Source: Acidimicrobiaceae bacterium (GTDB lineage: Bacteria > Actinomycetota > Acidimicrobiia > Acidimicrobiales > RAAP-2). From it: DNA of 38,042 nucleotides. The DNA is taken from NCBI GenBank assembly GCA_003158855.1, contig PMLJ01000032.1:57697-95738 (forward strand), read 5' to 3'. A program made the position numbers and the translations under genes. Positions 12,226 to 21,354 of the stretch are shown piece after piece (positions within the stretch are counted from its first letter, which is position 1; each line of letters starts with the position of its first letter). The notes under the pieces were generated by a model. It ran no database searches. It had not been told where the DNA came from and saw only the letters and a list, made by a program, of their open reading frames with translations.

Positions 12226-13119
12226 CTACCTTACAAAACCTGAGGGCCCGCCGGCAAATTCATCGAATCCGACCCCGATAAGGCTCAGACCCCCAGCAGG
12301 GGCCGGCGGGGGCAAATGGTCCCGTTTTAGGCTCTCCAGGCGCTCTTTCACGGTGTTTTGGGCTAGGCGTCCCTGCCCGATAGCGACCATGGTCGACGTG
12401 AGACAGCGCACCATGTTGTGGCAGAACGACTGGGCCCGGATGGTGAGGCGAACGGCGGGGGCGTTGTTGGGGCTCATCCCCCACTCGTCTTCCAGCCTCT
12501 CCCATCGCGCCGCGTCAACGTGGCGAAGCAGCGGCTCGCCCGGCTCGGAGTTCGTGGGGCGCCGACAGAACGAGCGAAAATCGTGGGTTCCAATGATGTC
12601 GTCGCACGCCGCGTTCATGGCGGCGAGGTCCAGGGGGCCCTCGACCGACCAGGACCACGCTTCATTGACACCGAGGGCCGGCGGGGTCGCTTCCAGGAGG
12701 AGGTAGCGGTACTCGCGCCACGTCGCCGAGAAACGGGCGTGGAACTCGTCGCTGACCGTTTGTGCGCGTATGACGCGAACTCGGCCTCGAAGCTGCTGGT
12801 TGAGAGAGCGCATCAGCCGCTCGGGGTCGGGTCCGCGGTTCTTCGCAAAGAGCTTGGTGGGCAGGTCCACGTGGACGACCTGGGCGAAGGCGTGCACTCC
12901 GGTATCGGTGCGCCCGGCGCCGACAACGACGGGCTCTTCGCTCATGCCAAGGGTGCTCGCCAGGGTCTCGCGGAGCAGTCCGACTACCGTCGTGAACTCG
13001 GGCTGAAAGGCGAAGCCATTGAAACCATTGCCGTCGTAGGCAAGGTCAAGCCGCCACCGTTGGGTGGTGGCTACCGGTTGCTCAAACGAACTCAATGCGC
13101 GCCATCGGGGCGTTGTCAC
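12226..13119 (-). CDS. truA: tRNA pseudouridine(38-40) synthase TruA
   Basis: TruA makes pseudouridine at positions 38-40 of the tRNA anticodon stem-loop. The protein has RLDLAYDGNGFNGFAFQP, the catalytic aspartate in VGAGRTDTGVHAFAQVVH, the RYLLLE strand, DFRSFCRR and the late motif SFCHNMVRCLTSTMVAIG. The start is uncertain: GTG at 13119 gives 297 residues and overlaps rplQ by 38 bases; TTG at 13095 would give 289. The region before RWRLDLAYD has no family similarity, so either fits. It follows rplQ, as in many actinobacteria. Confidence 0.93.
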   Translation of the reverse strand: MTTPRWRALSSFEQPVATTQRWRLDLAYDGNGFNGFAFQPEFTTVVGLLRETLASTLGMSEEPVVVGAGRTDTGVHAFAQVVHVDLPTKLFAKNRGPDPERLMRSLNQQLRGRVRVIRAQTVSDEFHARFSATWREYRYLLLEATPPALGVNEAWSWSVEGPLDLAAMNAACDDIIGTHDFRSFCRRPTNSEPGEPLLRHVDAARWERLEDEWGMSPNNAPAVRLTIRAQSFCHNMVRCLTSTMVAIGQGRLAQNTVKERLESLKRDHLPPPAPAGGLSLIGVGFDEFAGGPSGFVR

Positions 13120-13444
13120 CCTGACGCGGCCCGAGCTTCAAGATTCGCGTGTACCCGCCGGGGCGCTCGGTGTAACGAGGAGCGATCTCGGTGAAGAGCT
13201 TGTGGGTCATGTCCTTGTCGCGAATGAACGCGACGACGCGACGCTGGGCGTGCACCGAGCCCTCGGGCGAGTTCTTCGCGGCGGTCACGACCTTCTCGAC
13301 GATCGGACGCAGCGCCTTGGCCTTGGCTTCGGTGGTAACGATCGATTCGGCCGCGATCATCGAAGCGACGAGGTTGCCCATCATCGCCTTCTGGTGGGCG
13401 CTGTCGCCACCGAATCGCTTGCCCTTCGTAGGTGTCCCGCGCAT
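13082..13444 (-). CDS. rplQ: 50S ribosomal protein L17
   Basis: L17 lies near the peptide exit tunnel. The 120-residue product has GTPTKGKRFGGDSAHQKAMM at the N-terminus in place of the more usual start with LGR, the core LVASMIAAESIVTTEAKAKALRP, and the ending GGYTRILKLGPRQGDNAPMA. The length is at the family norm. The ATG at 13444 lies two bases after the rpoA stop, and the 3' end overlaps truA. Confidence 0.96.
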   Translation of the reverse strand: MRGTPTKGKRFGGDSAHQKAMMGNLVASMIAAESIVTTEAKAKALRPIVEKVVTAAKNSPEGSVHAQRRVVAFIRDKDMTHKLFTEIAPRYTERPGGYTRILKLGPRQGDNAPMARIEFV

Positions 13445-13446
13445 GC

Positions 13447-14388
13447 TTAGTCCTCTATCCGCAGTGAGAGACCGCGCTCTTCGAGGCGGTCGTTGACGTC
13501 CTTCAGCGAGGTGGCGCCGAAGTTGGTGATCGAGGTGAGGTCACGCTCGGTGGCGTTGACCAGCTGGGCGATGGTGTTGATGCCGGCGCGCTTCAGGCAG
13601 TTGCGCGAGCGCTCGGTCAGGCCGAGCTCCTCGATGCGAATATCGAGTTCGGAGGCTGCGGCCTGAGCCGTGCCCACGTCGCCCAATTCCAGCGAAGGCG
13701 CTTCTTCGTCGAAGCTCCCGATCAGGTCAACGAGCGATCCGAGGGTCTTGCCCGAGGAAGCAAGCGCCTCACGGGGGCTGATCGAGCCGTCGGTCTCGAT
13801 GTCGATGACGAGACGGTCGAAGTCCTTCGACTGCTCGACGCGAACTGGCTCGATTTCGAAGCTCACGCGGCGCACCGGGGTGAAGATCGCGTCGAGCGGG
13901 ATCACGCCAATGGTCGACGAGCCCTTGTTGCCCTCGGCTCCGACGTAACCCTTGCCTCGCTCGACCGTCAACTCGAAGGTCAGCGCGCTCTTGGGATTGG
14001 TCAGGTACGCGAGGTGCAGGTCGGGGTTCAGGATCTCGACGTCGGCGGTCGTGGACAGGTCGACGGCGGTGACTGGGCCCTCGCCCCTCTTGTCGAGGCG
14101 CAGGGTGACGGGCTCGTCGCTGTGCACGATGAGCAAGAGGTCTTTCAGGTTCAGGCAGATGTCCTGGACGTCTTCCTTCACGCCCTCAATGACGCCGAAC
14201 TCGTGCAGGACCGCGTCGAACTTCACACGGGTCGCCGCGGCGCCCGGGATCGACGACAGCAGGGTGCGGCGAAGCGAGTTGCCGAGGGTGTGACCAAAAC
14301 CGGGGTCGAGCGGTCCAATGCCAAATGACTGACGGTTATTGACTTCTTCGCCGAGTGCTTCGATGGTGGGTCGTTGGATAATCAACAT
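13447..14388 (-). CDS. rpoA: DNA-directed RNA polymerase subunit alpha
   Basis: The alpha subunit nucleates RNA polymerase assembly and contacts promoter UP elements and activators. The 313-residue protein has the N-terminal dimer domain (FGIGPLDPGFGHTLGNSLRR at about 22-41, then LSSIPGAAATRVKFD) and, after a linker near 230-245, the C-terminal DNA-binding domain (IEELGLTERSRNCLKRAGI ... DLTSITNFGATSLKDVNDRL). TAAGGAG sits six bases before the ATG at 14388. It follows rpsD by 31 bases, as in the classical alpha operon. Confidence 0.98.
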   Translation of the reverse strand: MLIIQRPTIEALGEEVNNRQSFGIGPLDPGFGHTLGNSLRRTLLSSIPGAAATRVKFDAVLHEFGVIEGVKEDVQDICLNLKDLLLIVHSDEPVTLRLDKRGEGPVTAVDLSTTADVEILNPDLHLAYLTNPKSALTFELTVERGKGYVGAEGNKGSSTIGVIPLDAIFTPVRRVSFEIEPVRVEQSKDFDRLVIDIETDGSISPREALASSGKTLGSLVDLIGSFDEEAPSLELGDVGTAQAAASELDIRIEELGLTERSRNCLKRAGINTIAQLVNATERDLTSITNFGATSLKDVNDRLEERGLSLRIED

Positions 14389-14419
14389 GGGGACTCCTTA
14401 AGATCTTTGAAAGTTACGT

Positions 14420-15064
14420 TTACTTCGAGTACAGCTCGACGATGAGCTGCTCGTGGATCGATTCGTCGATCTGCTCACGCTGGGGTACGACTCGCACAGT
14501 GACGTTGAAACCGCCCTCGCTGACCTCGAGCCAGCCCGGAACCGTGCGGTCCAAGACGTCGAGGTTACGCTTCACATTGAAGTTCTCGCGGGTCACGTTC
14601 TTGAGGCCAATGACTTCGCCGGGACGGACGCGGTACGAGGGGATATTGACGCGCTTGCCGTTGATGGTCACGTGGCCGTGGCGCACGAACTGGCGGGCCT
14701 GGGCGCGGCTCGCGCCCCAACCGGCGCGGTACGCCACGTTGTCGAGGCGAAGCTCGAGGAACTGGAGCAGGTTCGTTCCGGTCATGCCGGGGCGACGGCT
14801 GGCCTCTTCGTAGAGATTGCGGAACTGCTTCTCCAGGAGACCGTAGATACGACGGGCCTTCTGCTTCTCGCGCAGCTGGGTCAGGTACTCGGATCCCTGG
14901 CGCTGACGGTCGCGACCGTGCATGCCGGGTGGGAACGCGCGCATCTGGCGGTCCGAGTTCTCCGCGACGGGGCACTTCATGGTGAAGCAACGCTCACCCT
15001 TCAGGTACAACTTGGTGCGCTCACGACGACAAAGTCGGCAAACGGGTCCGGTATAACGAGCCAT
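14420..15064 (-). CDS. rpsD: 30S ribosomal protein S4, zinc-binding form
   Basis: S4 starts assembly of the 30S body. The 214-residue product begins MARYTGPVCRLCRRE and has four cysteines (C9, C12, C26, C31) in the CxxC ... CxxxxC pattern of zinc-containing S4. The S4 RNA-binding domain includes LELRLDNVAYRAGW, ARQFVRHGHVTINGKRVN and IPSYRVRPGE. The ATG at 15064 lies eight bases after rpsK; a longer in-frame start at 15103 would add residues that no S4 has. In other bacteria S4 represses its operon by binding mRNA; I cannot identify such a site here. Confidence 0.97.
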   Translation of the reverse strand: MARYTGPVCRLCRRERTKLYLKGERCFTMKCPVAENSDRQMRAFPPGMHGRDRQRQGSEYLTQLREKQKARRIYGLLEKQFRNLYEEASRRPGMTGTNLLQFLELRLDNVAYRAGWGASRAQARQFVRHGHVTINGKRVNIPSYRVRPGEVIGLKNVTRENFNVKRNLDVLDRTVPGWLEVSEGGFNVTVRVVPQREQIDESIHEQLIVELYSK

Positions 15065-15072
15065 GATCTTCC

Positions 15073-15468
15073 TTAGCCTCGACGACGCTTTTTGGGGCGG
15101 CATCCGTTGTGGGGTAGCGGGGTGACATCCTTGATGGCCACCACTTCAATGCCGGCAGCGGCAATTGATCGAATCGCGGTCTCGCGGCCTGAGCCGGGAC
15201 CGCGCACGAGCACGTCGACCTTCTTGACGCCGTGCTCCATCGCGGCGCGCGCGCACTTCTCGGCGGCGAGCTGCGCGGCGTAGGGGGTTGACTTGCGTGA
15301 ACCCTTGAAGCCGACCTGACCCGACGATGCCCACGACAGGACGTTGCCCTCGGGGTCGGTGATCGACACGATGGTGTTGTTGAATGAACTCTTGATGTGC
15401 GCAACACCGAATGCGATGTTCTTGCGTTCCTTGCGGCGACCCTTTCGAGCCGTGGTCGGCTTAGCCAT
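15073..15468 (-). CDS. rpsK: 30S ribosomal protein S11
   Basis: S11 lies on the 30S platform beside the mRNA exit. The 131-residue product has [19 protein letters not shown], the [18 protein letters not shown] core, the [12 protein letters not shown] motif, and the C-terminus [16 protein letters not shown], all family hallmarks. Its ATG shares a base with the rpsM stop (TAATG). Confidence 0.98.
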
Positions 15469-15845
15469 TACTTCGTTACCTTCTTCTTACCGGCGACTGT
15501 GCGCTTCGGTCCCTTGCGGGTACGAGCGTTGGTTCGGGTGCGCTGACCGCGGACGGGCAGGCCCTTGCGGTGGCGGATCCCCTGCAAGCAGTTGATCTCC
15601 ATCTTGCGCTTGATGTCTTGAGCAACGTCACGACGAAGGTCACCCTCGACGGTGACGCTCTGGTCGATGTACGCACGAAGCTTGTTGATGTCGGCCTCGG
15701 TGAGATCCTTCACCCGGGTCGACTCGTCGACACCGGTCGCCGCGCAGATCTGCTGAGCGGTGGTGGGTCCAACTCCGAAAATGTAAGTAAGTGAGATCAC
15801 CGTTCGCTTCTCGCGTGGGATGTCTACTCCGGCAATACGGGCCAT
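15468..15845 (-). CDS. rpsM: 30S ribosomal protein S13
   Basis: S13 forms intersubunit bridges and its basic tail contacts the P-site tRNA. The 125-residue protein has [51 protein letters not shown] and [20 protein letters not shown]. It follows rpmJ by 12 bases and overlaps rpsK by one. Confidence 0.98.
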
Positions 15846-15857
15846 ATTCTTCCTCTC

Positions 15858-15971
15858 CTAGCCCTGGCGCTGCTTGTGACGCGGGTTCTCGCAGATCACG
15901 CGGACGTGACCCTCTCGACGAATGACCTTGCACTTCTCACACATCGCCTTAACGCTGGCGCGAACCTTCAT
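15858..15971 (-). CDS. rpmJ: 50S ribosomal protein L36, zinc-binding form
   Basis: A 37-residue protein: it begins [19 protein letters not shown] and ends NPRHKQRQG. Zinc ligands C11, C14, C27 and H32 are all present, so this is the zinc-containing form. It stabilises late folding of 23S rRNA. The ATG at 15971 follows GAGAAAG. Its position between infA and rpsM is the standard one in the alpha operon. Confidence 0.97.
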
Positions 15972-16004
15972 GTTTTTTCTTTCTCGATCTCTGTGGAACT
16001 TGAG

Positions 16005-16229
16005 TTATTTGTAGCGGTAGGTGATGCGCCCGCGAGTCATGTCGTAGGGCGTGATCTCCACCTGCACCTTGTCGCCGGGCAGGATACGGATGCGGTGCAT
16101 GCGCATCTTCCCCGAACTGTGAGCGAGCACGGTGTAACCGTTCTCCAGCTCGACGCGGAACATAGCATTGGGTAGAGGCTCTACGACGGTTCCCTCAACG
16201 GTGAACGCGTCTTCCTTTGGCTTACTCAG
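16005..16229 (-). CDS. infA: Translation initiation factor IF-1, apparent CTG start
   Basis: IF-1 is an S1/OB-fold protein that binds the ribosomal A site during initiation. The core is unmistakable: [58 protein letters not shown], ending TYRYK. Homologues start about ten residues before VEGTVVE. The only codon there with a ribosome site is CTG at 16229 (reading [14 protein letters not shown] as 74 residues), with AAGGAG exactly seven bases upstream. The in-frame GTG at 16283 (92 residues) and the ATG at 16322 (105 residues) would give unusually long proteins; the GTG has a weaker AGGGG seven bases before it. It is the first gene of the infA-rpmJ-rpsM string and is divergent from the DevSR-like module. 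Confidence 0.93.
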
Positions 16230-16262
16230 GTTCCTTCTCCTTGTGACGGCACTGCGACGTAG

Positions 16263-16279
16263 AGGAGCGAAATGCTCCT
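16263..16279 (-). promoter_or_regulatory. Hairpin in the infA leader
   Basis: AGGAGC (16263-16268) and GCTCCT (16274-16279) form a perfect 6-bp stem with a 5-base loop. On the minus-strand transcript it stands about 33 bases before the CTG start. Two shorter hairpins lie further upstream: ACCCC/GGGGT around 16290-16300 and GGTC/GACC around 16309-16320. A structured 5' leader is likely; a regulator is unknown. Confidence 0.4.
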
Positions 16280-16320
16280 TCACGGATGGACCCCTGGGGT
16301 TTCCAAGAGGTCGGCTGACC

Positions 16321-16348
16321 ATTCTACCGAAAATCCCCCGGAACGCAA
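16321..16348 (-). promoter_or_regulatory. infA: Candidate promoter of the infA (alpha) operon
   Basis: On the minus strand TTGCGT (plus 16343-16348) is followed after 16 bases by TAGAAT (plus 16321-16326). The -10 matches the consensus at 5 of 6 positions, the -35 at 3. Transcription would start near 16314 and give a leader of about 85 bases. A separate promoter is needed here because the plus-strand module separates infA from map. Confidence 0.55.
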
Positions 16349-16405
16349 AACCCGGTGTTTTGGAACGGCCCGGAATCCGTCCGAAGACGCCAAAATCCGC
16401 AAATT

Positions 16406-16419
16406 GTGACTGCAGACCC
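16406..16419 (+). promoter_or_regulatory. DevR-type inverted repeat upstream of the sensor module
   Basis: GTGACT at 16406-16411 and AGACCC at 16414-16419 are separated by two bases. The DevR/DosR box known from mycobacteria has the core GGGACT-N2-AGTCCC; this copy matches 10 of 12 core positions. Its centre is about 43 bases before the ATG at 16456. If that ATG is also the transcription start, the box lies at about -43, where DevR activates many promoters. The regulator encoded at 18025-18669 keeps the DevR recognition helix, so autoregulation is the natural inference. Confidence 0.5.
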
Positions 16420-16455
16420 TAGTGGCCCGTTGGGAATTGGGTTCATGCTTGGTAG

Positions 16456-16848
16456 ATGACGGCGCACCGCAAAACCCAGCTATCTGGGGCAATTGAGCGA
16501 GAAACCTGCCTCGATCTGCTTGAGCACGCTGCCTTGGCGCGCGTGGTCATCTCCGTCAAATGCCTGCCGGTGGCCCTTCCGGCACGAATTTCGCTCGTGG
16601 GGCGCGATCATCTGCTGCTCGCGAGCTCAGACCCCGCTGTTCGCCAGGCTGCGGAACGAAACGACGTGTTGTCGATCCAGATTGACGGCCTTGACGACGA
16701 CGGCATGGTCTGGTCGGTGATGGTGTCGGGCATCGGCAGCGTCGCCGGCGAGGACGAACCCTTGAGCCGCCCCCTCCAGGATGCCCTCGGTCACGGGGCC
16801 AAATTGGTCATGCTCCCGCTCTCGGTGGTTGTTGGCCAGCACGGGTAG
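16456..16848 (+). CDS. Pyridoxamine 5'-phosphate oxidase-like FMN-binding split-barrel protein
   Basis: A 130-residue protein with the layout of small actinobacterial split-barrel flavoproteins: CLDLLEHAALARVVISV (18-34), PVALPARISL (38-47), then RNDVLSIQIDGLDDDG and VWSVMVSGIGSV (85-96), which corresponds to the GWSVxVxG motif. These proteins bind FMN, F420 or haem in different groups; the cofactor here cannot be told. It is not a second PdxH, because the PLP-site block is absent. No Shine-Dalgarno precedes the ATG at 16456, which suggests a leaderless message. It is the first gene of a plus-strand module with the kinase (38 bases downstream) and regulator, and it lies next to a DevR-type box. 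Proteins of this type also occur in DosR-type regulons. Confidence 0.75.
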   Translation: MTAHRKTQLSGAIERETCLDLLEHAALARVVISVKCLPVALPARISLVGRDHLLLASSDPAVRQAAERNDVLSIQIDGLDDDGMVWSVMVSGIGSVAGEDEPLSRPLQDALGHGAKLVMLPLSVVVGQHG

Positions 16849-16886
16849 CTTGGACGACCGCGCGAGGTCGTGTGAGATGCTGGGTC

Positions 16887-18023
16887 ATGGCGTATCACCA
16901 AATCAAGGAGCCCGAGCGACTGTACGCGCTCATTGAAGCCATCCTTCTGATCGAAGCCGACGCCAGCCTCTCGACTCTGCTGAATCGAATCGTCGAGACC
17001 GCCGCCAAGTTGGCGGGTGCGCGTTACGGCGCGCTCGGCGTGCTCTCGAGTAACGGCGAATCGCTCTCCCGGTTCATCACCTACGGCATCGGCCAGGACC
17101 AGCGGGCACTCATCGGCGAAAGCCCGCACGGCGCCGGCGTGCTCGGCGAGACCATCCGCCTGGCGAAGCCGCTGCGCATCGACGAGCTCGCCGACCACGA
17201 GGGCTCGGCGGGGTTCCCCGAGCACCACCCCCCCATGCACCGGTTCCTCGGGGTGCCGGTGAAGACCGGCAACGGCCACGTCTACGGCAACCTCTATCTC
17301 ACCGACCCCTTCGACGGTGCGCCGTTCACGCAGGCCGATCAGGATCTCGTCGAGGCCTTCGGCCACGCCGCCGGCATCGTCATCGATCAGGCGCTGCTGC
17401 GCAGCCACGTGCGCGAGCTCACCCTGAGCGAGGAGCGCGAGCGCATTGCGCGCGATCTTCACGACACCGTGATCCAGCGGCTCTTCGGCGTGGGCCTCTC
17501 GCTGCAGCTTTCGCTCGGCGGATCGGTCGAGGACTCGGTGCGCGAGCGCATCGACAAGGCGCTCGACGACCTCAACGAGACCATCCACGAGATCCGGACC
17601 ACCATCTTCGAGATCGACCAGGAGGACGAGAAGAACATCTCCCTGGAGCGGCGCATCGCCGCGCTCACGACCGAGGTCGGGTCGCGGCTCGGCGTCTACG
17701 CCCACCTCGTCATGGCCCCAAACATCGGCAGCGACGTCGGCCCGCACAGCGCCCAGCACGCCTTGCAGGCGCTGCGCGAGATCCTGTCCAATATCGTGCG
17801 CCATTCCCAGGCCACCCTGGTGGACGTCAACGTGAGCGTCGAGGGCAATATGTTGGTGCTCACGGTCAAGGACAACGGCATCGGCTTCAACCAAACGAGC
17901 GGCACCGGCAGCGGATTGCGTAATCTGGTATCACGGGCGCACGACCTCGGGGGCGAATGTACCATTAACTCCGAGCTAGGGCGTGGCACACTTGTGCGGT
18001 GGACCGCCAACCGATTGGACTGA
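16887..18023 (+). CDS. DevS/DosS-like sensor histidine kinase, single GAF domain
   Basis: A 378-residue soluble sensor kinase. Order: short N-terminal helix; one GAF domain (about 27-172) with ARYGALGVL, SAGFPEHHPPMHRFLGVPV and GNLYLTDPFDGAPFT; HisKA_3 dimer domain with the phosphate-accepting histidine in ERIARDLHDTVIQRLFGVGL (H192); HATPase domain with REILSNIVRHSQA (N box, N302), DNGIGF and GTGSGLRNL. There are no membrane segments. Mycobacterial DevS has two GAF domains and binds haem through His149 in HPPM; here H114 is in the equivalent place, so haem sensing of oxygen, NO or CO is possible but unproven. The ATG at 16887 is chosen; a GTG at 16872 would add five residues. It ends one base before the regulator's start codon. 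Confidence 0.9.
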   Translation: MAYHQIKEPERLYALIEAILLIEADASLSTLLNRIVETAAKLAGARYGALGVLSSNGESLSRFITYGIGQDQRALIGESPHGAGVLGETIRLAKPLRIDELADHEGSAGFPEHHPPMHRFLGVPVKTGNGHVYGNLYLTDPFDGAPFTQADQDLVEAFGHAAGIVIDQALLRSHVRELTLSEERERIARDLHDTVIQRLFGVGLSLQLSLGGSVEDSVRERIDKALDDLNETIHEIRTTIFEIDQEDEKNISLERRIAALTTEVGSRLGVYAHLVMAPNIGSDVGPHSAQHALQALREILSNIVRHSQATLVDVNVSVEGNMLVLTVKDNGIGFNQTSGTGSGLRNLVSRAHDLGGECTINSELGRGTLVRWTANRLD

Positions 18024-18024
18024 C

Positions 18025-18669
18025 GTGATTCGACTACTCCTCGTTGATGACCACGAAATCGTGCGTCGCGGACTGCGCGAGCTTCTCGAGGCGAACGAGG
18101 ACCTGCGCGTCATCGCGGAGGCGGGATCGCTCGAAGAGGCGCTGGCGCTGGAGCTCGACGACATCGACGTCGCGGTGCTCGACGTCCGGCTTCCCGACGG
18201 CAGCGGCGTTGACCTGTGCCGGCTCCTGCACGAGAAGCGCGCCGACCTGGCCTGCCTCATGCTCACGTCATTCGCCGACAACGAGGCGTTGAATGCGTCG
18301 ATGCTCGCCGGCGCCCGGGGCTACGTCTTGAAGAACGTGCGCGGCGACGACCTCGTGAGCTCGATCCGCCGCGTCGCGGCGGGAGAGACGCTCATCAGCG
18401 ACGAGCAGCTCGAACGGGCGCGCGAACGCCTGCGCCGCCAGATCACCGAGGACATCCGCCTCGAGAGCCTGAGCGGGCAGGAGCGAAAGATCCTCGAGCT
18501 GCTGAGCGAGGGGCTCAGCAATCGCGAGATCGCCGAGGTGATGTTCCTGGCGGAGAAGACCGTGAAGAACTACGTGTCCAACCTGCTCGCCAAATTGGGC
18601 TTCCAGCGACGCACCGAAGCCGCGCTCTTCGCGCAGCGTCAGTTCGACCGCGCGCATCCGGACAACTAG
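18025..18669 (+). CDS. DevR/NarL-family response regulator
   Basis: A 214-residue regulator with an N-terminal receiver and a C-terminal LuxR-type helix-turn-helix. Receiver residues are intact: D8-D9, phosphoacceptor D53 in AVLDVRLPDGSG, T81 and K103. The DNA-binding domain (about 148-205) contains SGQERKILELLSEGLSNREI and MFLAEKTVKNYVS. As I recall DevR of M. tuberculosis, that second stretch is identical and includes the base-contacting Lys, Lys and Asn (here K178, K181, N182). The GTG at 18025 lies one base after the kinase stop, so translation is coupled and the kinase is the obvious partner. It is convergent with map and shares the stop-codon bases CTAG. Targets are probably GGGACT-type boxes, including its own. 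Confidence 0.93.
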   Translation: MIRLLLVDDHEIVRRGLRELLEANEDLRVIAEAGSLEEALALELDDIDVAVLDVRLPDGSGVDLCRLLHEKRADLACLMLTSFADNEALNASMLAGARGYVLKNVRGDDLVSSIRRVAAGETLISDEQLERARERLRRQITEDIRLESLSGQERKILELLSEGLSNREIAEVMFLAEKTVKNYVSNLLAKLGFQRRTEAALFAQRQFDRAHPDN

Positions 18670-19406
18670 GGAAGCGTAAAGACTTCCGGTCCGCTGTCGG
18701 TGACGGCGATCGTGTGCTCGAAATGGGCCGATAGTTTCCCGTCCCTGGTCACGACCGACCATCCGTCCTCGAGTTCGCAGGTCTCGTAGGAGCCGACATT
18801 CACCATCGGCTCGATGGCGAAGACCATCCCCTCCTTGAGCGTCGGTCCGGGAGTCCCCGGCCAGTAGTTGGGCACCTGGGGGCTCTCGTGCATGGCCGTT
18901 CCTATCGCGTGACCCACGTATTCGCGCACGACCGAGAAGCCTGCGGCCTCGGCGACCTTCTGCACGGCTCGCCCGATCTCGTGGAGGCGATTGCCAATCG
19001 TGAGCTGATCGATGCCCGCCCAGAGGGAGCGCTCGGTGGCGTCGATGAGGCGCTGGGCGACGTCGCTGATCTTGCCAACGCCCGCGGTGTAGGCGGCGTC
19101 GCCGTGGTACCCCTCGACGATCGCCCCGCAGTCAATCGAGATGATGTCGCCCTCTTTGAGCTTGTAGTCGCCCGGGATGCCGTGCACGATCATGTCGTTA
19201 GGACTCGTGCAGATGACCGCGGGAAAGCCGTGGTAGTTGAGGAAGTTGGAGCGCGCCCCGCGCTTGGCGAGCACCTCGGCGGCGACCTCGTTCAGCTGCA
19301 TGGTCGTGACCCCGGGACGAATCGCCGCCCGCGTCGCTTCGTGCATCTCGGCGACCACCTTGCCGGCCTTTCGCATCTTGTTCAGTTCGTCCGGCGAGCG
19401 CCTCAC
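18666..19406 (-). CDS. map: Methionine aminopeptidase, type I
   Basis: Map removes the initiator methionine from nascent proteins. The 246-residue protein has all five metal ligands: D92 and D103 (in IDCGAIVEGYHGD), H166 (YVGHAIG), E199 (FAIEPM) and E230 (HFEHT), plus the substrate-side H75 (IVHGIPGD). It has no N-terminal zinc-finger or SH3-binding extension. The start is a GTG at 19406 that overlaps the adk stop by four bases. It is the last gene of the large ribosomal string; its 3' end collides with the response regulator gene. Confidence 0.97.
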   Translation of the reverse strand: MRRSPDELNKMRKAGKVVAEMHEATRAAIRPGVTTMQLNEVAAEVLAKRGARSNFLNYHGFPAVICTSPNDMIVHGIPGDYKLKEGDIISIDCGAIVEGYHGDAAYTAGVGKISDVAQRLIDATERSLWAGIDQLTIGNRLHEIGRAVQKVAEAAGFSVVREYVGHAIGTAMHESPQVPNYWPGTPGPTLKEGMVFAIEPMVNVGSYETCELEDGWSVVTRDGKLSAHFEHTIAVTDSGPEVFTLP

Positions 19407-20062
19407 GCAAGGCCCTTCTCGTGGACAACTGACCTAATCGCCTCGGTGACGTCGTCGGGGCTCTGGTCGCCGTCAACCGTGACGAGGAGGCCTCTCGACT
19501 CGTAGAAGGACAGCAGCGGCGCGGTATCGCGCTCGTAGGTCTCCAGGCGCTTGCGGATGGCGTCGGGCTGGTCGTCGACGCGCTGGATCACGTCGCCACC
19601 GCAGTTCGCGCACGTTCCCGAAATCGCCTCGATGTCGGTGTCCCTGTAGATCGCACCGCACTCTTGGCACACGCGACGCGACGAGAGTCGGGCGGTCACG
19701 AGCTCGATGGGGACTTCGAGATTGATGCAGAGCTTGATCCCGTCATCGCCGAGCAGCGCCTCGAGCGCCTCGGCCTGGGCGAGGGTGCGAGGGAAACCGT
19801 CGAGCAGCGCCCCTCCCTGGGCGTCATCCTCCTTGAAGCGTTCGTCAACCAAACGGATCACGAGATCGTCCGATACCAGCGCGCCGGCGCTCATGACGTC
19901 CGCGACCTCGTGGCCGAGCGGCGTGCCGCTCTTCACGGCCGCGCGCAGGATGTCACCAGTTGAAACGTGAGGGATGGCGTACTCTTCGGTAAGGCGCTTG
20001 CACTGCGTTCCCTTGCCCGCACCCTGTATTCCCAGAACCACGAGGTTTAGACGTCCGGACAT
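19403..20062 (-). CDS. adk: Adenylate kinase, long form with zinc-type LID
   Basis: Adk interconverts ATP+AMP and 2 ADP. The 219-residue protein has the P-loop VLGIQGAGKGTQ (about 9-20), the AMP-binding HVSTGDILR and LLDGFPRTLAQAE, and a LID domain with four cysteines (C132, C135, C151, C154) in the zinc-binding pattern. The P-loop has Ile-Gln where most adenylate kinases have Pro-Pro, a mild deviation that keeps the catalytic Gly-Lys. It stands in the usual secY-adk-map order, two bases after secY. Confidence 0.97.
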   Translation of the reverse strand: MSGRLNLVVLGIQGAGKGTQCKRLTEEYAIPHVSTGDILRAAVKSGTPLGHEVADVMSAGALVSDDLVIRLVDERFKEDDAQGGALLDGFPRTLAQAEALEALLGDDGIKLCINLEVPIELVTARLSSRRVCQECGAIYRDTDIEAISGTCANCGGDVIQRVDDQPDAIRKRLETYERDTAPLLSFYESRGLLVTVDGDQSPDDVTEAIRSVVHEKGLA

Positions 20063-20064
20063 GG

Positions 20065-21354
20065 CTAGCGCTTCAGGAAGCCTTCGTAGTTGCGCATCAT
20101 GAGCTGCGAGTCGATCTGGCGCATGGTTTCAAGCGCGACACCCACCGCGATCAACAGGGTCGTTCCGTAGTACGGGAACTTGTTGATGTTCCACAACGCC
20201 ATCAAGATACTCGGCACCACCGCGACCGACGCGAGGAAGAACGCTCCCACGACCGTGATACGGCTCAGCATCTTGGCGAAGTACTTCTCGGTCGGCATGC
20301 CGGGGCGAATTCCCGGAACGAAGCCGCCCTGCTGGCGCAGCATTTCAGCCTGCTGGTGCGGTTCGAAGGCGATGTAGACGTAAAAGAACGTGAAGGCGAG
20401 GATCAAGATGAAGTCCGAGGCGATGTAGAAGAAGCTCGTCGGGTGCAGCGAGGTGTTCACGAAGTTCTGGAATCCGGTCCATGGCACGATGTTCGACAGC
20501 AGCACCGGGATGTACAGCACCGACGACGCGAAGATGATGGGGATAACTCCCGACTGGTTCACCTTCAAAGGTATGTACGTGGAGTTGCCACCCATCTCCT
20601 TGCGCCCGACAACGCGTCGGGCGAACGTCACCGGTATGCGGCGTTGGCCGTTGTCCATGAAGACGATGAGCACGAGCAGCGCGATCGAGATCACGAAGAT
20701 GATGAAGAACTTCGCGGGGCCACCCTCGCTCCACACGGCCTTGCCGCCCGACGGCAGTCCAGCCACCACGTTCGCGAAGATCAAGAGGCTCATGCCCTGG
20801 CCAATGCCGCGCTGGGTGATGAGCTCGGCGAGCCACATGACGAACGCCGTTCCGGCGGTCATGATGGCCACCATGAACAGGCCCATCCAGAGGCTGAACT
20901 TGGGGATCAGGTCGATGTTGAAGCCGAGCAACGCCTGGTCGTGACCGTGGAACGCGTAGATGAGCCCCGTTGACTGCAGCAGCGCGAGGCCGATCGTCAG
21001 GTAACGGGTGGTCTGCGTGATCCGCTTCTGACCAACGGCACCCTGGTCACGCCATTCGGTGAGCTTGGGGATGACGGTCGTGAGCAGCTGGATGACGATC
21101 GAGCTGGTGATGTAGGGCATGACACCGAGGCCGAAGACCGCGAGGCGGGTCAGCGCGCCGCCCGAGAACAGGTTCAAGAATCCAAGCACTCCACTCGCGC
21201 CGGCCTTGGACTGGAGCAGTTGGACCTGCGACCAGCTGACCCCAGGAATGGGCAAGTTCGCCCCCAACTGGTAGAGGCTGATGATCCCGATCGTGAACAG
21301 GACCTTGTTGCGAAGGTCCGGTACACGAAAGATATTCGCGAGTCGCTTGAACAC
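20065..21354 (-). CDS. secY: Protein translocase subunit SecY
   Basis: SecY is the channel of the general secretion pathway. The 429-residue protein has about ten membrane segments. It starts MFKRLANIFRVPDLRNKVLF, followed by PGVSWSQVQ, FSGGALTRLAVFGLGVMPYI, which carries the plug/TM2 region, and the late GIRPGMPTEKYF cytoplasmic loop. TM10 and the short C-terminal tail (MMRNYEGFLKR) are typical. The start is a GTG at 21354 with AAGG upstream. It lies nine bases after rplO in the standard spc operon order. SecE and SecG are not in the window. Confidence 0.98.
   Translation of the reverse strand: MFKRLANIFRVPDLRNKVLFTIGIISLYQLGANLPIPGVSWSQVQLLQSKAGASGVLGFLNLFSGGALTRLAVFGLGVMPYITSSIVIQLLTTVIPKLTEWRDQGAVGQKRITQTTRYLTIGLALLQSTGLIYAFHGHDQALLGFNIDLIPKFSLWMGLFMVAIMTAGTAFVMWLAELITQRGIGQGMSLLIFANVVAGLPSGGKAVWSEGGPAKFFIIFVISIALLVLIVFMDNGQRRIPVTFARRVVGRKEMGGNSTYIPLKVNQSGVIPIIFASSVLYIPVLLSNIVPWTGFQNFVNTSLHPTSFFYIASDFILILAFTFFYVYIAFEPHQQAEMLRQQGGFVPGIRPGMPTEKYFAKMLSRITVVGAFFLASVAVVPSILMALWNINKFPYYGTTLLIAVGVALETMRQIDSQLMMRNYEGFLKR

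Follow-up and report, generated by a model that had tools for sequence, protein, structure and literature searches.

The mycobacterial sensor kinases DosS and DosT each carry two tandem GAF domains, GAF-A and GAF-B, and regulators of the DevR/DosR/OsdR type recognise boxes with a GGGACTTnnGGCCCT-like consensus and regulate genes of hypoxia and anaerobic metabolism. The proximal heme His is H149 in DosS and H147 in DosT, the distal Tyr Y171 and Y169, respectively, and these kinases autophosphorylate in the deoxy, CO and NO states and are switched off by O2. Passages of PMC4082495 assign heme-pocket roles to H149 (the proximal heme histidine) and Y171 (the distal tyrosine) of DosS and to G85 of DosT, published abstracts name Asp54 as the phospho-acceptor of DevR and K182 as a contact residue, and part of PMC3029386 describes a box over the -35 region for DevR targets. 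Fsq (MSMEG_5243) of Mycobacterium smegmatis, a flavin-sequestering dormancy-regulon protein described as protecting FAD in hypoxia (in PMC13284343), is counted in the DosR regulon in passages of PMC6292918 and PMC13284343. In Streptomyces coelicolor a DevR-type regulator and a DosS/DosT-like kinase form OsdR-OsdK (SCO0204-SCO0203). The osdR-osdK operon lies in a stress-gene-rich region with USP genes in Streptomyces, one of its boxes is GGGGCCATCCGGCCCT before SCO0214, and the predicted OsdR regulon in Streptomyces includes a PNPOx gene (sections of PMC5069765).

The window, the whole stretch of 38,042 nucleotides analysed here, belongs to a genome of 2.7 Mb. In its infA-map interval three genes lie on the plus strand, opposite to both flanking genes, in the order flavoprotein-kinase-regulator (Table 1). 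Coordinates and strands are as claimed in the preliminary description of this DNA. The stop codons of the regulator gene and map overlap in a shared CTAG. The kinase start was placed at ATG 16887 from the sequence and its relatives; the mechanical ORF begins at 16872. Like OsdR-OsdK, the trio combines a DevR-type regulator with a DosS/DosT-like kinase and has a similar box, and the PNPOx gene predicted for the OsdR regulon parallels its flavoprotein gene, but it differs in gene order and in its place between infA and map, and no universal stress gene belongs to it. With DosS/DosT-DosR it shares the heme GAF residues, including the DosT-type Gly, and the DNA-contact positions of the regulator, whereas the single GAF domain, the gene order and the genomic place are different. 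We read the trio, with a probability of about 0.8, as a self-regulating hypoxia/CO/NO module of the DosR/OsdR type that controls an anaerobic regulon and is lodged at a transcription-unit boundary.

Table 1. Features of the infA-map junction in the window
Feature	Coordinates	Strand	Evidence
infA (IF-1), CTG initiation codon at 16227-16229	16005..16229	-	window and relatives
infA 5' leader, putative 5' end; one covariation-supported hairpin	16230..16314	-	8/9 predicted pairs
infA promoter-like element TTGCGT-N16-TAGAAT	16321..16348	-	conserved with and without trio
DevR-like box GTGACTGCAGACCCTA, centre 42 bp 5' of trio start codon	16406..16421	+	aligned relatives
-10-like element CATGCT, 6 bp 5' of trio start codon	16444..16449	+	aligned regions, by eye
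Fsq-like flavin-binding split-barrel protein, PF12900, FDOR type; trio gene 1, predicted leaderless start	16456..16848	+	Pfam, AlphaFold2 model, PDB match
Single-GAF sensor histidine kinase, DosT-like heme GAF (predicted) with HisKA_3/HATPase_c	16887..18023	+	Pfam, structure matches, invariant residues
DevR/OsdR-type response regulator, receiver and LuxR HTH, start GTG 18025	18025..18669	+	Pfam, structure match, invariant positions
map, type I methionine aminopeptidase, convergent with trio	18666..19406	-	TIGR00500

The placement of the trio was compared in 44 genomes of the same genus (G000-G036, G114, G122, G126, G156, G181, G185 and G195). In 22 of them infA, the trio and map lie on one contig in that order, and in eight more (G006, G009, G013, G020, G024, G026, G114, G122) the trio is near just one of infA and map, the other flank being unresolved or far: the trio is 3.6 kb from infA in G006, the kinase is cut by a contig end in G013, and infA falls outside the stretch read beside the trio in G009, G020 and G026. 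One genome, G035, is ambiguous as its kinase reaches the contig end and infA is on a different contig. The remaining 13 have no trio at the map-infA junction (G001, G004, G007, G008, G012, G014, G019, G022, G028, G032, G033, G156, G181), where map and infA are on separate contigs in G001, G004, G014 and G032, and the call for G001 is based mainly on no kinase match. The arrangement thus recurs in many independently assembled genomes, so that chance and an error in one assembly are both excluded as its source; an insertion in one genome, which the preliminary description had named among the outcomes that would refute its reading, is rejected. Tail-to-tail contact with map varies: by alignment ends, 14 of the 22 genomes have a trio-map gap of no more than 60 bp, and the other eight have one above 500 bp. 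Gene order, orientation and box spacing are kept although kinase identity drops to 45-50%. The closest kinases in named records come from the Acidimicrobiaceae MAGs palsa_657 (96%) and bog_806 (83%), and the isolate names, palsa and bog among them, hint at peatland.

The trio was not found in three genomes of two other genera of the family (L308-L310), nor in the regions examined in other families of the order. In these families map and infA are adjacent on one strand, the arrangement that had been called normal, with 87-308 bp between them in eight intervals (L134, L136-L138, L141, L143-L145), 375 bp in L140 and 467 bp in L139; the exceptions are L135 with 1.6 kb and L142 with 3.0 kb. In trio-less genomes of the genus with both genes on a shared contig, map and infA are 482-13,889 bp apart in seven cases, about 0.25 kb apart in G156 and about 0.5 kb in G181. 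DNA other than the trio is therefore accepted at the junction as well, with stretches of 3-14 kb in L115, L119, L123 and L125. A regulator-like gene or fragment remains in the map-infA interval of the trio-less genomes G019 and G022. In G019 (L121:2392-3091) it is a regulator gene, 44% identical, accompanied by a palindromic DevR-like box GGGACTTTGGTCCCTA; a kinase match was not found in that interval.

A tree of four alpha-operon proteins from 43 genomes, with G008, G009, G018, G020, G032 and G036 left out, has 26 rows with the trio, 16 without it and one unlabelled (G035). Presence and absence of the trio require at least five changes on this tree, whose support is uneven and whose method does not tell gain from loss. 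Since the outgroup is without the trio and early branches of the genus have it, one gain followed by a few losses is the simplest account, and the trio would then have entered once near the base of the genus, with mainly vertical inheritance afterwards. By its alpha-operon proteins G029 (L034/L290) groups with G005, yet its kinase is 96% identical to that of the window, which may reflect either recombination or misassembly.

Upstream of the trio a box with the pattern GKGACYnnnGRCCCTA (13 fixed positions) is found. Within 31 infA-trio intergenic regions the fit is 13/13 in 22, 12 in six and 11 in two, and L020, which holds a run of N, scored 8. In total 40 distinct regions have a box with at least 11/13, and for 39 of them a start codon was called, taken as an ATG or GTG in frame at a distance of 35-60 bp (in L062 the box is present and no start codon was called). 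The box centre lies exactly 42 bp 5' of the trio start in 35 of these 39 loci and 43-44 bp in three; the last, L023, was mis-called at 36 bp and by eye has its ATG at 42. Left out of the spacing count were L020, L047 and L133 (one genome) as well as L055 and L086, which have no box of at least 11/13. A CATGCT or similar word stands at the same place in many aligned regions, as judged by eye. Because this -10-like element ends 6 bp 5' of the start codon, the trio mRNA is probably leaderless, and with such a start the box would lie over the -35 region, as in mycobacterial DosR promoters. The trio thereby has a GGGACTTnnGGCCCT-like box before its own operon, as DevR/DosR/OsdR regulators do, and most likely regulates itself through it, with the regulator predicted to bind directly over the -35 of the leaderless promoter. 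A consensus scan reported no promoter and no terminator. It is little informative, as it missed even conserved elements such as CATGCT and the infA element TTGCGT-N16-TAGAAT.

This infA element and the leader behind it are conserved in the genus, trio-less genomes included; in one locus without trio (L304) the -35 departs from the genus element, and by eye promoter-like elements precede infA in several other families as well. With its own promoter-like element and leader also where the trio is absent, infA is probably the first gene of a transcription unit of its own. This supports a boundary between the units of map and infA, which would explain why an insertion is tolerated there, and the module would sit at this junction for that reason. 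If so, genes can persist within a block of ribosomal genes throughout a genus, apparently because such a boundary tolerates them.

In 31 loci the box lies between 38 and 2166 bp from the infA -10, and in 21 of these the distance falls within 83-101 bp. The box stays with the trio where 2.3-3.6 kb separate trio and infA (L039, L116, L124). Eleven stretches from the genus contain infA and lack the trio; ten of them have no box reaching 12/13, and the eleventh is L121, with its regulator-like gene and one palindromic box. Direct control of infA by the box was rejected as improbable on the spacings. It is conceivable that the module is as we describe it and its place is functional in addition, so that induction of the trio at low oxygen alters the infA-alpha operon or map via divergent promoters or convergent transcription and so couples gas state to translation. 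The recurrence of the trio at this junction in 22 genomes, with eight more showing one flank, the overlapping stop codons, the scan without a terminator and the 83-101 bp shared by 21 of 31 loci are all in line with this. However, the other ten loci span the whole range of 38-2166 bp with an unchanged 42 bp to the trio, the box remains with the trio despite kilobases to infA, the infA promoter-like element and leader are alike without the trio, the trio-map gap exceeds 500 bp in 8 of 22 genomes, and 13 of 44 genomes have no trio there. We therefore consider a functional place unlikely.

Even further, the junction itself could be regulatory, with induction of the gas module lowering or reshaping translation capacity and gas state being linked to initiation-factor supply at one locus. 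This we regard as quite unlikely: the coupling to translation proposed in the preliminary description finds no support in a box that is fixed at 42 bp from the trio and accompanies it kilobases from infA, and its divergent control of infA is disfavoured by an infA element and leader that look alike in trio-less genomes. If true, it would concern a genus in which infA also has a structured leader and a CTG start. We thus prefer the module at a tolerant boundary, and its parts are described below.

The kinase consists of GAF, HisKA_3 and HATPase_c domains (Pfam), and its best sequence matches among solved structures are the heme GAF domains of DosT and DosS. Its predicted structure has a mean pLDDT of 77.4, and the GAF part superimposes on DosT (2vzw) with 50% identity and an rmsd of 1.3 over 144 columns. 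All 33 of the 33 aligned homologues keep the equivalents of DosS H149 and Y171 and of DosT Gly85. Pfam finds a single GAF stretch (residues 31-172 of 383) instead of the tandem of DosS and DosT, so the kinase is DosT-like and not a DosT. These matches and residues bear out the DevS-like identity given to the kinase earlier, and the heme-ligand residues together with the DosT-like fold support gas sensing as the likely input; the GAF domain is predicted to bind heme. A second HisKA_3 kinase of PAS-PAS-GAF architecture is encoded on contig C29 (L208:4486-6438), with two DevR-like boxes 1.5 and 5.7 kb away, and is a possible second input.

The regulator has Response_reg and GerE domains (Pfam) and matches DevR best among solved structures (3c3w, 203.7 bits). 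Its phospho-acceptor and DNA-contact positions are invariant in 21 of 21 sequences, so that it carries the residues of DevR/DosR/OsdR regulators; among them are the equivalents of Asp54, of the Thr/Lys switch and of the DNA contacts K179, K182 and N183. The DevR-type identity that had been proposed for it is thus supported. In the mechanism we propose, the DosT-like kinase would hold heme in its single GAF domain, and O2 leaving the heme, or binding of CO or NO, would cause it to phosphorylate the regulator, which would then bind the box of its own promoter.

GAF domains bind many ligands, and the kinase might sense something else without heme, or the boxes might belong to another NarL-type regulator, as two further GerE-domain proteins are encoded in the genome. 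Against this stand the ligand residues invariant in 33/33, the DosT-like fold, the DevR contact positions invariant in 21/21 and the box at fixed spacing before the trio itself, and the regulator on contig C19 is just 31% identical to that of the window. A different ligand or regulator is therefore decidedly doubtful. That the genes moved without any constraint, by drift or hitch-hiking, is very improbable: the junction does hold other DNA in trio-less genomes of the genus and several lineages are without the trio, but order, orientation and box spacing have been kept down to 45-50% kinase identity.

The product of the first gene (130 amino acids) matches Pfam Pyridox_ox_2 with 30.4 bits at a cut-off of 27. 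A sequence search of solved structures gave 6eci as best, though weak, match (E 0.0055). In the AlphaFold2 model (mean pLDDT 89.0) the nearest structure is again 6eci, which is MSMEG_5243 (Fsq); ranks 1-17 are all 6eci chains, the TM-score on the target reaches 0.84, and the split-barrel fold is present at about 20% identity. The DosR-regulon member Fsq is thus both its best structural and its best sequence match. The flavoprotein is Fsq-like and probably shields FAD at low oxygen, with FAD binding being putative. As part of the module, it would guard FAD during low oxygen.

Across the window's genome, sites with at most one mismatch to the box number 34 versus 24 for the reversed pattern, and exact sites three versus none. 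Thirty of the 34 were examined, four without a locus being left out. By a crude ORF caller, whose training set was 33 ORFs of the window, 21 of the 30 boxes but only 4 of 24 control sites are intergenic (Fisher p 1.1e-4). Sites that are intergenic and also have a gene start no more than 300 bp away number 15 of 30 versus 1 of 24 (p 2.3e-4), and nine boxes lie inside coding sequence. As the excess over the reversed pattern is modest, the predicted regulon rests on the genes beside the boxes and not on box number. Ten proteins near eight intergenic boxes were picked by eye, a choice that favours recognisable genes, and belong to the Pfam families NiFe hydrogenase small subunit, POR gamma subunit, CtaA, Prismane/CO dehydrogenase, zinc alcohol dehydrogenase, nitroreductase, flavin reductase, E1-E2 ATPase, radical SAM and malic enzyme. 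The full CO dehydrogenase ORF is an anaerobic CO dehydrogenase catalytic subunit (TIGR01702, NCBIfam, 710.9 bits, cut-off 478). For the hydrogenase ORF, NCBIfam likewise gives a hydrogenase small subunit (421 bits, cut-off 179.5). Some distances are long: cooS begins about 0.8 kb from its box, and the ORF of the hydrogenase small subunit about 0.4 kb. The nitroreductase and cation-ATPase genes adjoin one and the same box and are reminiscent of the acg-like and ctpF genes in the DosR regulon. Other boxes adjoin a glycosyltransferase-like protein, a transporter and unknown proteins, and one lies inside coding sequence in a block that, as judged by eye, comprises rpsP, rimM and trmD (L162).

In 12 relatives 20 exact boxes were counted versus eight for the reversed pattern; minus the nine trio boxes, 11 versus eight remain, which is hardly an excess. 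Nine of these 11 adjoin a close homologue of a gene beside a box in the window's genome, two of the nine being from the very close G029 and two inside a called ORF. The box-gene associations point to anaerobic metabolism as the predicted target. Besides a nitroreductase and a cation ATPase, the genes whose nearby boxes the regulator would bind serve the metabolism of H2, CO, malate and 2-oxoacids, and the predicted targets would join H2, CO and ferredoxin-linked metabolism. Unlike the DosR regulon, they include the anaerobic CO dehydrogenase (TIGR01702) and a 2-oxoacid:ferredoxin oxidoreductase. The module would thus extend the DosR/OsdR dormancy-type switch to a genus of the Acidimicrobiales known here from metagenome-assembled genomes. 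Among the literature matches listed (titles and abstract starts) none dealt with this case, be it for DevR/DosR with Acidimicrobi, for a two-component system in a ribosomal operon or for CUG and other non-canonical starts of infA; PMC9845219, on non-AUG starts in chloroplasts, contains the word infA.

The infA leader is structured in the genus, and in eight of nine predicted pairs of its hairpin at least one sequence is changed on both sides. Rfam gave four matches in window positions 13000-21000, none up to its gathering score; a known RNA family at the junction was rejected, Alpha_RBS reaching 19.3 bits versus 38. At the initiation position of infA, the relatives have CTG in 75 of 83 distinct contexts, GTA in four and an unclear codon in four, with no ATG, GTG or TTG among them. 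In 32 of the 83 contexts there is no canonical codon up to the upstream in-frame stop; the remaining contexts, including that of the window, have an ATG, GTG or TTG further upstream. Start codons in the class were read in the best 30 of 141 genomes. The infC gene starts with AUU, which the CTG start of infA resembles, and the latter may mean autoregulation; the CTG/GTA start could open a testable parallel to infC. Elsewhere in the phylum a canonical codon, mostly TTG or GTG, is nearby in 20 of 28 loci, and by eye infA starts with ATT in L325 and L334.
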